Source of the DNA: Flavobacteriales bacterium
GTDB lineage: Bacteria > Bacteroidota > Bacteroidia > Flavobacteriales > Flavobacteriaceae
NCBI GenBank assembly: GCA_027061855.1
Contig: JAMOVT010000097.1
Span: 1-45,828, forward strand
DNA: 45,828 nucleotides
Direction: 5' to 3'
Made by a program: the position numbers and the translations under genes. Of the stretch, positions 26,642 through 30,756 are shown piece after piece; within the stretch, counting starts at the first letter, position 1, and the number at the start of each line of letters is the position of its first letter. The notes under the pieces were generated by a model. It saw only the letters and a program-made list of their open reading frames with translations. It had not been told where the DNA came from and ran no database searches.

Positions 26642-27757
26642 ATGGAAAAATATTACATAAAGGAAGTTTCTGACTCTCAAACACTCAAGGATTTCATTGA
26701 ATTTCCTTATACCTTATATAAGCACCATAACTATTGGATTCCTCCCATTAAGAGCGATGAAAAAAAATATTGGACCCAACATCCGGCATTGGAATTTGCC
26801 GAAATGAAAAAATGGGTTGCCTATTGGAAAGATCGTCCGGTAGGCCGGATAGCTGCCATTATCAATCCCAGATATAATGAAAAAACAGGCGAAAAATACG
26901 GACGAATCGCCGGGCTGGAAACCTATAATGATGAGAAAAGTTTTCGCATGATGATGGATACAGCTGTAAATTGGTTAAAAGAAAAAGGGATGAAAAAGGT
27001 TCATGGGCCTCTGGGATATACCAATTTGGATACGCAAGGAATGCTTATAGAAGGTTTTAAAGAATTACCTTCTATCGCTTCAGTTTATCATATGCCCTAT
27101 TACAAAACACTGATGCAAAAATATGGTTTTGAAAAAGAAAAAGATTGGGTGGAATTTCATTTAAAACTTACAGATGATTTGGTAAAAAAAGGCGAACGGG
27201 GAGCCAAACTCATCGAACGCCGTTTCGGGATGAAAGTTTTTTCGCCCAAAAACAAAAAAGAACTCGAAAAATATGCGGAATTGACCTTTGATATTTTAAA
27301 TCAATCATTCAAACATTTGCCTTACGTTATAGAATTTGATGACAAACTAAAAGAATTTTACAAGAAAAAATATTTTTCCGTTTTAGATCCCCAGTACACA
27401 TTTTTTGTAAAAGACAAAGAGAAGATAGTCGGTTTTCTAATTACCATCCCCAGTCTTTCCGAAGCTATGCAGAAAGCAAACGGAAGCTTATGGCCTTTTG
27501 GATGGTACCATCTTTGGAAAGCTTTTAAAAAACCAAAAGGTGTAGATACATTGATTTCGGGGGTAGTCCCCGAATATGAACCCAAAGGTGTCGCCGTATT
27601 GCTTTTTGATGCATTGCATCAATTTATGATGAAAAAAGGAATAAGGGATATAGAAACTACCGGCGTATTTGAAGACAATTTTCAAGTTCTAAACAACTGG
27701 CAAAACTACGATCATGTGCAACATAAACGCAGAAGAAGTTGGATAAAAGAATTATAA
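26642..27757 (+). CDS. GNAT-like protein (YghO-type), function unknown
   Basis: A 371-residue soluble protein. The opening MEKYYIKEVSDSQTLKDFIEFPYTLYKHHNYWIPPI and the segment WVAYWKDRPVGRIAAIINPRYNE look like the start of a GNAT acetyltransferase fold; PVGRIAAI would be the acetyl-CoA strand. A second region (QYTFFVKDKEKIVGFLITIPS, LLFDALHQFMMKKGIRDIE) repeats the pattern, so the protein may be a double GNAT. It resembles the YghO group, often mislabelled GTP cyclohydrolase. The substrate is unknown. A weak -7-like element TTAATTTG (26607-26614) precedes it, and a strong bidirectional terminator follows. Confidence 0.7.
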   Translation: MEKYYIKEVSDSQTLKDFIEFPYTLYKHHNYWIPPIKSDEKKYWTQHPALEFAEMKKWVAYWKDRPVGRIAAIINPRYNEKTGEKYGRIAGLETYNDEKSFRMMMDTAVNWLKEKGMKKVHGPLGYTNLDTQGMLIEGFKELPSIASVYHMPYYKTLMQKYGFEKEKDWVEFHLKLTDDLVKKGERGAKLIERRFGMKVFSPKNKKELEKYAELTFDILNQSFKHLPYVIEFDDKLKEFYKKKYFSVLDPQYTFFVKDKEKIVGFLITIPSLSEAMQKANGSLWPFGWYHLWKAFKKPKGVDTLISGVVPEYEPKGVAVLLFDALHQFMMKKGIRDIETTGVFEDNFQVLNNWQNYDHVQHKRRRSWIKEL

Positions 27758-27781
27758 AAAAGGCGCTTTTGCGCCTTTTTT
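27756..27781. terminator. Bidirectional terminator
   Basis: GGCGC TTTT GCGCC flanked by AAAAAA on the left and TTTTTT on the right. It serves the GNAT-like gene and the ECF operon, which converge here. Confidence 0.9.
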
Positions 27782-27791
27782 ATAATTTTTA

Positions 27792-28580
27792 TTATTCAAA
27801 ATAATCATTAAAACTGTCAAACTTTTTCTGCAAAATACGAGTTTGCTTTTGGGCGGTTTCGATATCATTGGCAGCAATAAGTGCATGAAGATCTTCCTCT
27901 ATTTGATGAAAAAATTGTTGTATAGGTTTAAAATCTTCTTCTTGGTAGGACTTATCCAAAAGAATAGATCTTGTATGATCAAAGATTTTATTACCCAAAG
28001 CATGGTAATCATTCAAATCATCCGAATGGAAATCTTTCAAACTATTTTGAATAGTAGATATTTCCTTTCTTGTATGAGCATTAATTTTCCATTTTTTCCC
28101 GTTATTTAGACCTATTTTGCTGTTTTGTCCTTGCTGCATTTTCGGTAAATTTCCAAAATCCGTTTTATACAAGGCCTTTGCAATAAGTTCCAAATCTTGA
28201 TCGGAAAGAGAAAGAGGAGGCATCAATCCGAATTTCCTCGCCGCCCCCGGCATCATAGCATTTTCTTCTGACGGATGTTTTACCCAGTCCGTGATTGCAT
28301 TTACAAATTCTTCCTCAGTATTATAAGCAGGTTTATAATGTTCCTGAATACGAACCATCGGAGGAGCTATCATTTGATCTCTTCTGGAGGGATCGGGTTT
28401 TTCAAAATGACAAACAAAACAATGTTGTTTCATCAATTGGTAGCCTTTTTTATCTATTTTTTGGTTATGTGTTTCAGAAATTACTCTTGATGTATGTTCT
28501 TTATTTAAAGTACTTGATTTATTTTGTTGACAGGATAAACTAAAGATTCCTATCAATATAAATAAAAGTTGATTTTTCAT
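27792..28580 (-). CDS. Lipoprotein cytochrome c with helical C-terminal domain
   Basis: A 262-residue lipoprotein (signal FILIGIFSLSC, Cys17). One class-I c-type haem site is present: CFVCH (54-58), with a methionine axial ligand candidate in FGLMPPLSLSDQDL (M120). The haem domain spans about 45-140. The C-terminal 110 residues are a helical region of unknown type with Asp/Glu and His-rich helices (DFHSDDLNDYHALGNKIFDH). It is the last gene of the ECF sigma operon, 32 bases after the DUF2202 gene. Likely role: electron carrier at the inner or outer membrane under the sigma factor's control (inference). Haem attachment requires the Ccm/ResBC system encoded elsewhere. Confidence 0.8.
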   Translation of the reverse strand: MKNQLLFILIGIFSLSCQQNKSSTLNKEHTSRVISETHNQKIDKKGYQLMKQHCFVCHFEKPDPSRRDQMIAPPMVRIQEHYKPAYNTEEEFVNAITDWVKHPSEENAMMPGAARKFGLMPPLSLSDQDLELIAKALYKTDFGNLPKMQQGQNSKIGLNNGKKWKINAHTRKEISTIQNSLKDFHSDDLNDYHALGNKIFDHTRSILLDKSYQEEDFKPIQQFFHQIEEDLHALIAANDIETAQKQTRILQKKFDSFNDYFE

Positions 28581-28612
28581 TTTTCAGATATTTTTTATTT
28601 CCTATTCAAACT

Positions 28613-29215
28613 TCATAATCTTCCACATCGTTCATGAGGTGAAGTAATTATTTCAGTAAATAAAGACTCATTGATATAATGGGGTCTGTATTTTCTGCCT
28701 CTGGAAGTTATTTGAGCTATAAAAGCGCGCATATGATTACGAGAACCACATTCAAGTTTATTGAATGTATTAATAATAAGAATTTTATTGGTTTTCTTAC
28801 GAAATTCGCGAATATCTTTAATGTCCAAATCTTCAATTATCGCTCCTACTTCCAAAGCATCTAAAAGGGATTTATCAACTTTAGCTGTTAATCGCTTATA
28901 TAATTCTTGTAATTTTTTACTGTTAAAAACTCCTTTTTGTCTGGTAGCAGAATCACCTAAGTCATATTTTTCAAGTAAATACAAAGCTTGATCCATATGT
29001 CTCTGCTCACTATGGCTAATATTTGAAAATATAGGAAGCCCGTATTTTTCATACGCATATAAATATACATCACGTGCTAATTTTTCTTCTTCTCTGAGCT
29101 CTCGCAAAATATGTTTCTCTTCATTAGTTAAAATTTCTTTATTGTTTTCTTGGGCATATGAATCATATCCAATAATGATAAAAAAAATCACGACCAAAGT
29201 TTTATAAATTTTCAT
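28613..29215 (-). CDS. DUF2202 ferritin-like exported protein
   Basis: 200 residues with a signal peptide (MKIYKTLVVIFFIIIGYDSYAQ). The core matches DUF2202: LREEEKLARDVYLYAYEKYG, SHSEQRHMDQALYLLEKY, VGAIIEDLDIKDI and GSRNHMRAF. These carry Glu and His residues spaced as in the four-helix ferritin-like fold (EExxxAR, SExxHM, EDLDI, RNH), so a di-metal site is plausible. Such proteins are found in archaea and bacteria, with function undetermined. Position 5 bases after the Spy-like gene shows co-transcription in the ECF operon. The signal peptide puts it in the periplasm, unlike cytoplasmic ferritins. Confidence 0.8.
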   Translation of the reverse strand: MKIYKTLVVIFFIIIGYDSYAQENNKEILTNEEKHILRELREEEKLARDVYLYAYEKYGLPIFSNISHSEQRHMDQALYLLEKYDLGDSATRQKGVFNSKKLQELYKRLTAKVDKSLLDALEVGAIIEDLDIKDIREFRKKTNKILIINTFNKLECGSRNHMRAFIAQITSRGRKYRPHYINESLFTEIITSPHERCGRL

Positions 29216-29220
29216 AGTTA

Positions 29221-29739
29221 TTATTTTTTAGAGTTTTTCGGCTGTTTTTTATTCATTTTATGAGATCTTTTGTTTTTTCTGATTTTCGCCATCATCTTTC
29301 TATTAAAGTTTCGCTCGGTTTTATAGAATTTTACCACTTTTTTTGGAGGTAATATTCTTCTTAATTCTTTTTGGAAATTCAATTCGATTTTCATTCTCTG
29401 ATTTTCCAATTCCATTTTTCTGTCCAAAAGCTTGTTCAATTCCGCATCAGACATTTCGAGGTATTTTCCTTTTTCGATTTTCATTCGAAATTCTTGTTGA
29501 ATTTTTTTTCTCAATTGCATTTTTTCCTGTGCATATTTCTTATAAGCCGTTTCAAAAGCTTTTGATTCTTTGGGAGTCAACATTAAATTCTCTTTCATGA
29601 AAATCATTTTTTTCTCCATTATTTTTTGGTATTTGGGACCTTGCATTCCCATTTGGGATCCCATTCCTCTATGTTGCGCTTGAAGATTCAGGCTAAGGAA
29701 TAATACCATCACGATACTAACTAATTTTACTGTTTTCAT
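29221..29739 (-). CDS. Spy/CpxP-like periplasmic protein
   Basis: 172 residues with signal peptide MKTVKLVSIVMVLFLSLNLQAQ, then a Gly/Met-rich stretch (HRGMGSQMGMQGP) and two long charged helices (FETAYKKYAQEKMQLRKKIQQ, LLDRKMELENQRMKIELNF). The motif LTPKESKAF at the start of the helical region resembles the LTxxQ motif of CpxP/Spy chaperones. The C-terminus is very basic (KNKRSHKMNKKQPKNSKK). It lies 12 bases after the presumed anti-sigma gene and 5 bases before DUF2202. In other phyla CpxP/Spy/CnrX-like proteins bind misfolded proteins or metal and feed signals to a regulator. The same may apply here (inference). The Met-rich start could bind copper. Confidence 0.7.
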   Translation of the reverse strand: MKTVKLVSIVMVLFLSLNLQAQHRGMGSQMGMQGPKYQKIMEKKMIFMKENLMLTPKESKAFETAYKKYAQEKMQLRKKIQQEFRMKIEKGKYLEMSDAELNKLLDRKMELENQRMKIELNFQKELRRILPPKKVVKFYKTERNFNRKMMAKIRKNKRSHKMNKKQPKNSKK

Positions 29740-29751
29740 ATCTATTTATTT

Positions 29752-30120
29752 TTAATTTATATTTATTTCGGTTTCATCATAAATTTCATCCATCAATCCG
29801 TTGTCTACAAGATATTCTTCTATTGTTTCTTCATCTATATCATCAAAAAAAGCATCATCGTTTACAGAAACAGGATGAGAAAATCCGGTTTTATTTTGAT
29901 TATATGGATCCTCTTTTTTCATCAGAAAAAATATGCTCATTCCAAAAATCAGAAGAACACTCGCTGCAACAGACAATGAATATAAGAATCTCTTTTTGGC
30001 TCTCTCTTTCTTCATTCCGTTAGCCAAACGACTCTCCAACTCATCAAAATAATTTTCTGGAGTTTTGTATCCCGATTTCAAGGATTTCATTAAATTTTCT
30101 ATGTTATGTTTGTTTTCCAT
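29752..30120 (-). CDS. Single-TM protein, presumed anti-sigma factor
   Basis: 122 residues from the ATG at 30120 (a GTG two codons earlier is less likely). A cytoplasmic part of about 47 residues with PENYFDELESRLANGM is followed by one membrane helix (FLYSLSVAASVLLIFGMSIFFLM, about 47-69) and an acidic periplasmic tail (DDAFFDDIDEETIEEYLVDNG). No zinc-binding HxxxCxxC motif is present. The motif PENYF(D/E)...L and the short layout are typical of the small membrane proteins that follow ECF sigma genes in Bacteroidota, so anti-sigma is the best guess by position. It follows the sigma gene by 22 bases and precedes the Spy-like gene by 12. Confidence 0.65.
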   Translation of the reverse strand: MENKHNIENLMKSLKSGYKTPENYFDELESRLANGMKKERAKKRFLYSLSVAASVLLIFGMSIFFLMKKEDPYNQNKTGFSHPVSVNDDAFFDDIDEETIEEYLVDNGLMDEIYDETEININ

Positions 30121-30142
30121 CACGTTTATAAGACAATTTGAA

Positions 30143-30670
30143 TCACAAAAGGTTTAATATTTGTTTAATTTTTTTTACTGCCAAATGATAAGAGGCTTTT
30201 AAGCTACCGGTCGAAACTCCCAATATTTGGGAGATTTCATCAAATGTTTTTTGGCTGAAATATTTCAGACGGAAAATTTCTTGTTGACGCGGAGGTAGTT
30301 TTAACAAAGCTTTTTCCAATTTTAAAAGAGCTTCGTCTCCGTCAAACCAAGGATCATTTTTCAAAGCGGCAATCAAATCTTCATTTAAAGTTTCTCCCCG
30401 AGAATATTTTCCGTTTTTCTTTAAAAAATTAAGTGATTCATTCACGGCAATCCGGTAAAGCCACGAAAAAAGTTTACTATTATAGTTAAAAGAACCCAAA
30501 GATTTATAAATTTTAATAAAAGTATTTTGCAAAACATCATCGGCATTCTCATGCGTTTTGACAATCGGGCGAATTACCCAATACAAATCCTTTGAATAGT
30601 GTTTCACTATCCAATTCATCTGTACATTTTTCTCCCAATGCTTAAAAGCATTTATATCGGGTTCAATCAT
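30143..30670 (-). CDS. ECF-type RNA polymerase sigma factor
   Basis: A sigma-70-family factor of the extracytoplasmic-function class, 175 residues. Region 2 includes NADDVLQNTFIKIYKSLGSF and SKLFSWLYRIAVNESLNF; region 4 is LPPRQQEIFRLKYFSQKT followed by FDEISQILGVSTGSLKA, a helix-turn-helix for -35 recognition. Regions 1.1 and 3 are absent, as expected. I chose the ATG at 30670 because a TATATTTG promoter element (30695-30702, minus strand) overlaps the longer alternative start at 30697. It heads a five-gene operon whose other members are all membrane-bound or exported, which fits an envelope stress role. Confidence 0.88.
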   Translation of the reverse strand: MIEPDINAFKHWEKNVQMNWIVKHYSKDLYWVIRPIVKTHENADDVLQNTFIKIYKSLGSFNYNSKLFSWLYRIAVNESLNFLKKNGKYSRGETLNEDLIAALKNDPWFDGDEALLKLEKALLKLPPRQQEIFRLKYFSQKTFDEISQILGVSTGSLKASYHLAVKKIKQILNLL

Positions 30671-30694
30671 TCGGCATATTTCTTTGTTATAAGA

Positions 30695-30702
30695 CAAATA
30701 TA
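30695..30702 (-). promoter_or_regulatory. -7 box of the ECF operon
   Basis: On the minus strand TATATTTG matches TAnnTTTG, placing the start point near 30688. No TTG lies at the -33 distance, so an additional sigma factor (such as self-activation) could use this region. Confidence 0.4.
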
Positions 30703-30756
30703 AATAGGAAAAGTTTAAAGGGAGAAGAAATAAAATGGAAATGGAAACATTTTGCT

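Follow-up and report, generated by a model that had tools for sequence, protein, structure and literature searches.

A probable autoregulated envelope-stress operon of a Flavobacteriaceae bacterium, with a DUF2202-cytochrome c pair as its added output

In the CnrYXH system of Cupriavidus metallidurans, an extracytoplasmic function (ECF) sigma factor, a membrane anti-sigma factor and a periplasmic helical sensor are encoded together, the sensor CnrX having a His-containing metal site. The same three-part gene logic is found in five open reading frames (ORFs) at positions 27792-30702 of contig JAMOVT010000097.1 of the Flavobacteriaceae assembly GCA_027061855.1; positions 1 to 45,828 of this contig, which were the stretch of DNA analysed, are referred to as the window. 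The minus strand carries all five ORFs, which read as a sigma factor, a 122-residue protein with a single transmembrane helix, a Spy-like protein, a DUF2202 protein and a cytochrome. The model of the Spy-like protein gives a middling fold match to CnrX and its sequence gives none, and the output of CnrYXH is a metal efflux pump, whereas that of the window operon would be the DUF2202-cytochrome pair. The locus is probably an autoregulated envelope-stress operon to which this redox pair has been added as an output. The ECF/anti-sigma/sensor arrangement is of a known kind, and what is new is the redox output together with a defined promoter site.

Other described or deposited systems share parts of this arrangement. 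MJ0754 of Methanocaldococcus jannaschii (PDB entries 3Q4N, 3Q4O, 3Q4Q and 3Q4R) belongs to the same DUF2202 family and keeps the ligand-type residues, but it is entered as an 'uncharacterized protein', whereas the window protein has a signal-like start, an ECF operon and a cytochrome. The ECF operon of the family genome G134 (L097:7914-10945) also encodes a sigma factor, a presumed anti-sigma factor, a Spy-like protein (PF13801) and a two-domain cytochrome (44% identity), differing in that its sigma factor is 30% identical (residues 42-170), an EF-hand protein stands in place of DUF2202 and the promoter site described below is missing. According to the part of the source that describes it, motif SM6 of Flavobacterium psychrophilum, which has CGT as its -10 box, marks a predicted ECF regulon comprising type IX secretion system genes and also a pair of sigma and anti-sigma factors (PMC9723704). 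The window-type site has instead a GTC, mostly preceded by A, and Spy-like, DUF1800 and DUF6515 targets, this being a comparison with the part of the source that describes the motif and not with the SM6 logo (PMC9723704). In the open-access literature no mention was found of DUF2202, PF09968 or MJ0754, and no paper on the combination of ECF sigma factor, anti-sigma factor and Spy in flavobacteria.

The five genes are two units, a triad of sigma factor, presumed anti-sigma factor and Spy-like protein that is common in Flavobacteriaceae, and a DUF2202-cytochrome add-on. Relatives of the Spy-like protein are present in 132 of the 149 family genomes, that of the window among them, and in 28 of the 30 family loci fetched (own included) the sigma gene and the presumed anti-sigma gene, the latter in the same slot, lie directly 5' of the Spy-like gene. 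In the two exceptions, the anti-sigma slot is filled by an opposite-strand ORF under mechanical ORF calling (L049) or no Spy ORF was called (L050). The gene that follows Spy lies on the opposite strand in 20 of the 30 loci, on the same strand in eight, and beyond reach in L041; the window locus alone has a same-strand gene less than 100 bp after Spy. In both same-genus relatives (L130, L131) the triad adjoins the GNAT gene that lies beyond the operon in the window, DUF2202 and the cytochrome are absent there, and a different terminator-like repeat, as judged by eye, follows Spy. Since the triad occupies the corresponding place in both and the pair is lacking there, the pair is either an addition in the lineage of the window or was lost in both relatives. 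Mis-binning of the window was rejected because the order of GNAT gene and triad is common to both same-genus genomes.

The sigma gene encodes a short protein with regions 2 and 4 (PF04542, 47.0 bits against a cut-off of 24; PF08281, 52.0 bits against 25.7). ECF sigma factors act on their own promoters through an AAC-type -35 and a GTC-type -10 element, and the site found 5' of the sigma gene (P1, Table 1) fits this general consensus at the level of sequence. Upstream of the sigma genes of the family the consensus is TTAAAC[CT][AT]T[AT]-N13-GTCNNA, and TTAAAC-N17-GTC occurs upstream of 29 of the 34 sigma genes that the SIG model matched. In the same 34 regions, shuffling gave a mean of 0.13 and at most 1 occurrence, while the two elements were found 0 times at a spacing of 16, 0 times at 18 and once at 23. 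In 21 of 32 triads the stop codon of the sigma gene has a further site no more than 60 bp away, as it has P2 in the window. Since TTG 30697 falls within the conserved P1 site, ATG 30670 is the more likely start of the sigma factor. The Bacteroidota -7 box (TAnnTTTG) of housekeeping promoters has a single match on the coding strand of the operon region, at 30702, where 1.65 are expected from shuffles; it is overlapped by the conserved ECF-type site, the box occurs within 80 bp upstream of only two of the 34 sigma genes (shuffle mean 1.5), and this candidate was rejected. A scan for sigma-70 type promoters was uninformative (eight matches against a shuffle mean of 15.1).

With zero mismatches, the genome of the window has exactly two sites (30693-30718 and 30132-30157, or 30690-30718 and 30129-30157 by the longer pattern), both within the five-gene operon. 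Two were also obtained when the pattern was altered slightly (YWTW, GTCNNA), the reversed control then giving 0. Allowing up to one mismatch gave nine matches, fewer than the 34 that the reversed pattern gave, and the seven added sites were dismissed as targets, none of them lying 15-75 bp 5' of an ORF of at least 60 residues; one such one-mismatch site (L208) is 155 bp 5' of an ORF that resembles SecA by eye. The DUF2202-cytochrome pair thus appears to be the sole recognisable output of the sigma factor besides the triad, within a 2.04-Mb draft in 117 contigs that is 95% complete, for which reason a target may have been overlooked. With the longer pattern, at least one site was found in 137 of the 149 family genomes, the reversed control also yielding single chance matches.

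Table 1. Features of the operon and its 3' flank in the window
Feature	Position	Strand	Evidence
P1, ECF-type promoter site TTAAACTTTT-N13-GTCTTA, 5' of the sigma gene	30690..30718	-	
ECF sigma factor, 175 aa, ATG start	30143..30670	-	PF08281 5.4e-14, PF04542 2.2e-12; TIGR02937 100.4 bits vs cut-off 42.9
P2, another ECF-type promoter site, which overlaps the stop codon of the sigma gene, just 5' of the presumed anti-sigma gene	30129..30157	-	
Presumed membrane-anchored anti-sigma factor, 122 aa, transmembrane helix at about residues 49-67	29752..30120	-	Position and hydrophobic stretch
Spy/CnrX-like helical protein, signal-like start, 172 aa, Met 9.9%, Lys 20.3%	29221..29739	-	
DUF2202 (ferritin-like) protein, signal-like start, 200 aa	28613..29215	-	PF09968 165.5 bits
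Monohaem cytochrome c, lipobox-like start, CXXCH at residues 54-58, Met120, C-terminal four-helix domain at about 166-262	27792..28580	-	
Terminator-like repeat, common to the convergent GNAT gene (26642-27757, +)	27750..27787	-	

Sites of this type also precede genes outside the triad. Of 55 DUF2202 genes fetched from relatives and the genome of the window, three have a site within 150 bp upstream (37 bp in G146, 43 bp in G795 and 97 bp in G868), compared with none of 328 further genes in these loci, not counting those of the triads (Fisher p 0.003, with genes treated as independent). The DUF2202-cytochrome pair of G146, which is of another genus, lies mid-contig and on a different contig from the triad, with its own site, and the sigma gene of the G146 triad (L101) also has a site of its own. 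It is this unlinked pair that speaks most strongly for a functional, non-accidental joining of the genes in the window.

In relatives, 60 non-triad site places were fetched, of which 59 were usable; in an uncontrolled count, 50 of these have an ORF start 6-130 bp downstream, and of the nine without one, seven lie inside an ORF. The targets cluster into Spy-like (14), DUF1800 (6), DUF6515 (6) and beta-lactamase-like (4) proteins, with smaller clusters of carboxypeptidase-regulatory/TonB type (3), sulfatase type (3), EF-hand (2) and Porph_ging (2). Pfam was run on a single member from each of six clusters, and TonB and sulfatase are names given by eye; the tested member of the Spy-like cluster matched DUF4890 and LTXXQ, both below the cut-off. 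Many of the targets have signal-like starts as judged by eye, which are not obvious in the DUF1800 proteins. In five triads (L044, L046, L049, L056 and L065) a DUF6515 gene just after Spy has its own site under a relaxed pattern, and DUF6515 genes away from the triad are also preceded by a site, giving two modes; downstream genes therefore enter the regulon in more than one way. From these patterns, DUF6515 looks like a conserved member of the regulon, and the genes preceded by a site in relatives look like an envelope-stress regulon.

The 122-residue protein is encoded beside the sigma gene and has one transmembrane helix after its N-terminal part. No match to an anti-sigma domain over the cut-off was found in Pfam or NCBIfam, DUF3379 appearing below the cut-off only. 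The Spy-like protein likewise gave no match over the cut-off to the Spy/CpxP profile (LTXXQ, PF07813), and its Pfam matches to SspB (E 0.062) and PF13801 (E 0.082) are both under the cut-off. The structural model of the Spy-like protein, predicted from its single sequence, aligns with CnrX over 105 residues with a Z of 8.0, which is below the guide value for helical proteins, and a root mean square deviation (rmsd) of 4.5. A search of the PDB with the sequence gave no match to CnrX. Export signals and the lipoprotein box of the window proteins were judged by eye.

The DUF2202 protein matches its family profile well above the cut-off (165.5 bits against 22) and MJ0754 (3Q4N) with an E of 2e-46 over 173 residues. 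E43, E70, H73, E128 and H161 are invariant in 10 DUF2202 sequences and kept in MJ0754, and these would be residues of metal-ligand type. Genes for DUF2202 are present in 10 of 149 genomes of the family, 13 of 296 of the order (one below the cut-off), 29 of 395 of the phylum (two below the cut-off), each count including the genome of the window, in 11 of 118 of the family of G504, and in one of the three genomes of the genus, this being the genome of the window itself. A search of genome contigs for DUF2202 gave one distant archaeal locus, which was not used. The 55 genes analysed were fetched in two sets (46 and 9), with loci L142-L167 and L178-L186 extending only about 1.5 kb per side.

A gene for a monohaem cytochrome c related to the N-terminal half of the window cytochrome lies directly 3' of DUF2202 on the same strand in six of the 55 cases, from two families (the window, G146, G504, G534, G892 and G835). 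In the tree of 54 DUF2202 rows, the window copy falls in a six-row group (83/85) with those of G146, G504, G534 and two unpaired copies. The pair label requires four changes on this tree, at least two of them forced by the starred branches, and only one of 500 shuffles was as low. The earlier note would have taken the separation of DUF2202 and cytochrome genes from ECF operons in most relatives as a sign against its reading; separation is largely what was found, given that within the flanks fetched a same-strand ECF sigma gene is near only two of the 55 DUF2202 genes, in the window and in G623. The sigma factor of G623 is 23% identical to that of the window over the matched part. Its locus (L170:8049-9472) has the ECF sigma gene, without a visible anti-sigma gene, directly 5' of DUF2202, followed by metallo-lactamase-like and thioredoxin-like genes as named by eye. 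Three tandem DUF2202 genes, one strongly diverged and on a long tree branch, are found in G413 (L102:6880-8980).

The cytochrome is a two-domain protein, with a monohaem cytochrome c followed by a predicted C-terminal four-helix domain. Its score against PF00034 (Cytochrom_C) is 20.6 bits for a cut-off of 21.3, CXXCH is present, and C54, C57, H58 and M120 are invariant in eight aligned cytochromes, corresponding to the CXXCH and distal Met of a class I cytochrome c. The cytochrome c half of the model was poor because AlphaFold was run on single window sequences, and it was not interpreted. A single-sequence model of the C-terminal domain aligns with cytochrome b562 over 93 residues, with an rmsd of 1.8 and a Z of 12.2, which falls short of the guide value for helical bundles (about 13). 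The haem of cytochrome b562 is ligated by Met7 and His102; by approximate equivalence, the C-terminal domain has no Met at 168-182 and no His at 256-262. A PDB search with the cytochrome sequence gave no match up to E 0.1. Among the 149 family genomes the full two-domain cytochrome was found outside the window only in the G134 operon, with its Spy-like protein, and in 345 genomes of the class (E up to 1e-12) there was no further whole-protein match, those of G1182 and G1103 being partial, to model positions 204 and 213 of 268.

The four-helix domain also has standalone relatives in nine loci (L133-L141, e.g., L133:7127-7615, minus strand), of 136-170 residues and with signal-like starts; a Pfam scan of three of them gave no match over the cut-off. 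In seven of the nine loci these genes lie between HlyD-type and ABC-type efflux genes, while L138 has ABC-type and NO-reductase-like genes beside it and L135 a heavy-metal-ATPase-like gene nearby, all named by eye. The motif C[TS]MxGxSHDxLH is present in all nine relatives, where it is possibly a copper-type metal site, and is absent from the window cytochrome.

These relatives bear on the question of whether the operon handles metals, with the Spy/CnrX-like protein sensing Cu, Ni, Co or Fe in the manner of CnrYXH and DUF2202 acting as a periplasmic ferroxidase or in metal sequestration, oxidising metal and passing the electrons to the cytochrome. The gene logic is that of CnrYXH, eight of the 14 top rows of the fold comparison with the Spy-like model are CnrX chains, the standalone four-helix relatives with their Cys/Met/His motif lie beside efflux-type genes, and DUF2202 has its conserved set of Glu and His. 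Nonetheless, the Z of the CnrX rows is 7.0 to 8.0, at an rmsd of 4.3 to 5.3, the Spy-like protein has two His, no Cys and no sequence match to CnrX, the Cys/His motif has been lost from the domain of the window cytochrome, and the largest target clusters of the relatives consist of Spy-like, DUF1800 and DUF6515 proteins and not of metal pumps, which leaves metal handling an unlikely main function.

In the favoured reading, that of an envelope-stress operon, the membrane protein would hold the sigma factor at rest, helped by the Spy-like protein, which would be a sensor or chaperone. Unfolded envelope proteins, or damage by metals or oxidants, may titrate the Spy-like protein, and the freed sigma factor would then turn on P1 and P2, giving more sigma factor, anti-sigma factor, Spy-like protein and redox pair. 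DUF2202 would be a periplasmic ferritin-like di-iron protein with the cytochrome c as its electron partner, most likely carrying electrons of the respiratory chain, and its di-iron site would reduce peroxide or some other oxidant, acting outside the cytoplasm much as a rubrerythrin does. Peroxide is suggested as the substrate because an AhpC/TSA (peroxiredoxin) gene follows the cytochrome gene in G504 and G534, cytochrome bd genes lie 5' of DUF2202 in G534 (in the order cydA-cydB-DUF2202-cytochrome-peroxiredoxin), and an AhpC/TSA gene follows DUF2202 in G028.

A role of the pair in detoxifying NO or reactive sulfur instead of peroxide is improbable. It would agree with the DUF2202 gene of G116 (L020), within 5 kb of NorBC-like genes (Cytochrom_C and COX1 proteins, named Nor by eye), and with a rhodanese/metallo-beta-lactamase gene (G071) and a Pyr_redox_2 gene (G028) within 8 kb of DUF2202, but in the tree none of these three genes belongs to the six-row group of the window DUF2202, whereas G504 and G534, with their peroxiredoxin genes, do belong to it.

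More broadly, a regulon of TTAAAC-N17-GTC sites across Flavobacteriaceae, run by the triad, may tie periplasmic protein quality control to a new di-iron reductase (DUF2202 and cytochrome c) fed by the respiratory chain, the part recognisable in the draft genome of the window being a single operon that has, apart from itself, the reductase as its sole output; this wider proposal is put forward tentatively and is rather more doubtful than the reading of the locus itself. If true, a periplasmic di-iron protein fed by a dedicated cytochrome c would be part of an envelope-stress response, giving a testable first role to DUF2202, a family with a solved structure. A promoter site is now defined for a stress sigma factor that is widespread in Flavobacteriaceae, and the trigger and the regulon can therefore be tested together.

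Several observations weigh against the reading of the locus as a stress operon with a peroxide-reducing output. No site precedes 52 of the 55 DUF2202 genes, the second DUF2202 gene of the genome of the window among them (L013:7963-8601, G000:C67; 49% identical, with no cytochrome neighbour), and two of the three genes that have one (L183 and L184, in G795 and G868) come from one genus. Five of the 34 sigma genes are without the site (L038, L048, L050 and both sigma genes of L097/G134). The 122-residue protein was presumed to be the anti-sigma factor from position and topology alone, and the direction of electron transfer is one that we infer. Furthermore, RND efflux, rhodanese/metallo-lactamase and NO-reductase-like genes are found no more than a few kb from DUF2202 genes of relatives, and for this reason the chemistry of DUF2202 may not be that of peroxide.

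The rarity of the site before DUF2202 would also suit a pair that landed after Spy by chance and is only read through, with no functional tie to the stress response, as would its absence at the same place in both same-genus genomes, the patchy distribution of DUF2202 in the family and its GC3 of 19.9%, the lowest among the nine genes compared. Such a passenger is nonetheless improbable, given the independent site 37 bp 5' of the unlinked pair of G146 and the sites 5' of DUF2202 in G795 and G868.

Of the arrangement described in the earlier note, the five co-directional genes with gaps of 5-32 bp (22, 12, 5 and 32 bp in gene order) and one terminator were all confirmed on the minus strand. A scan of the coding strand found a single terminator-like site, at 27787-27750, 3' of the cytochrome gene, and none between the five genes. 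Its reading as an ECF operon directed at the envelope, which encodes a CnrX/Spy-like protein and has a di-metal-type protein and cytochrome as its output, is also supported, in view of the sites 5' of the sigma and anti-sigma genes, the lack of an internal terminator and the G146 pair with its site. The five genes as a single conserved system are not supported, given that two same-genus genomes have the triad but lack the pair beside it and that a close same-strand gene after Spy occurs in one of 30 loci.

A difference from the window was also seen on the other side of the triad. In the same-genus genome G434 (L131:2685-6449), a gene for a 1254-residue protein with a signal-like start lies between the sigma gene and a pyrophosphatase gene, where the window has no gene, and a relative of it, cut by the contig end, is present in G435 (L132).

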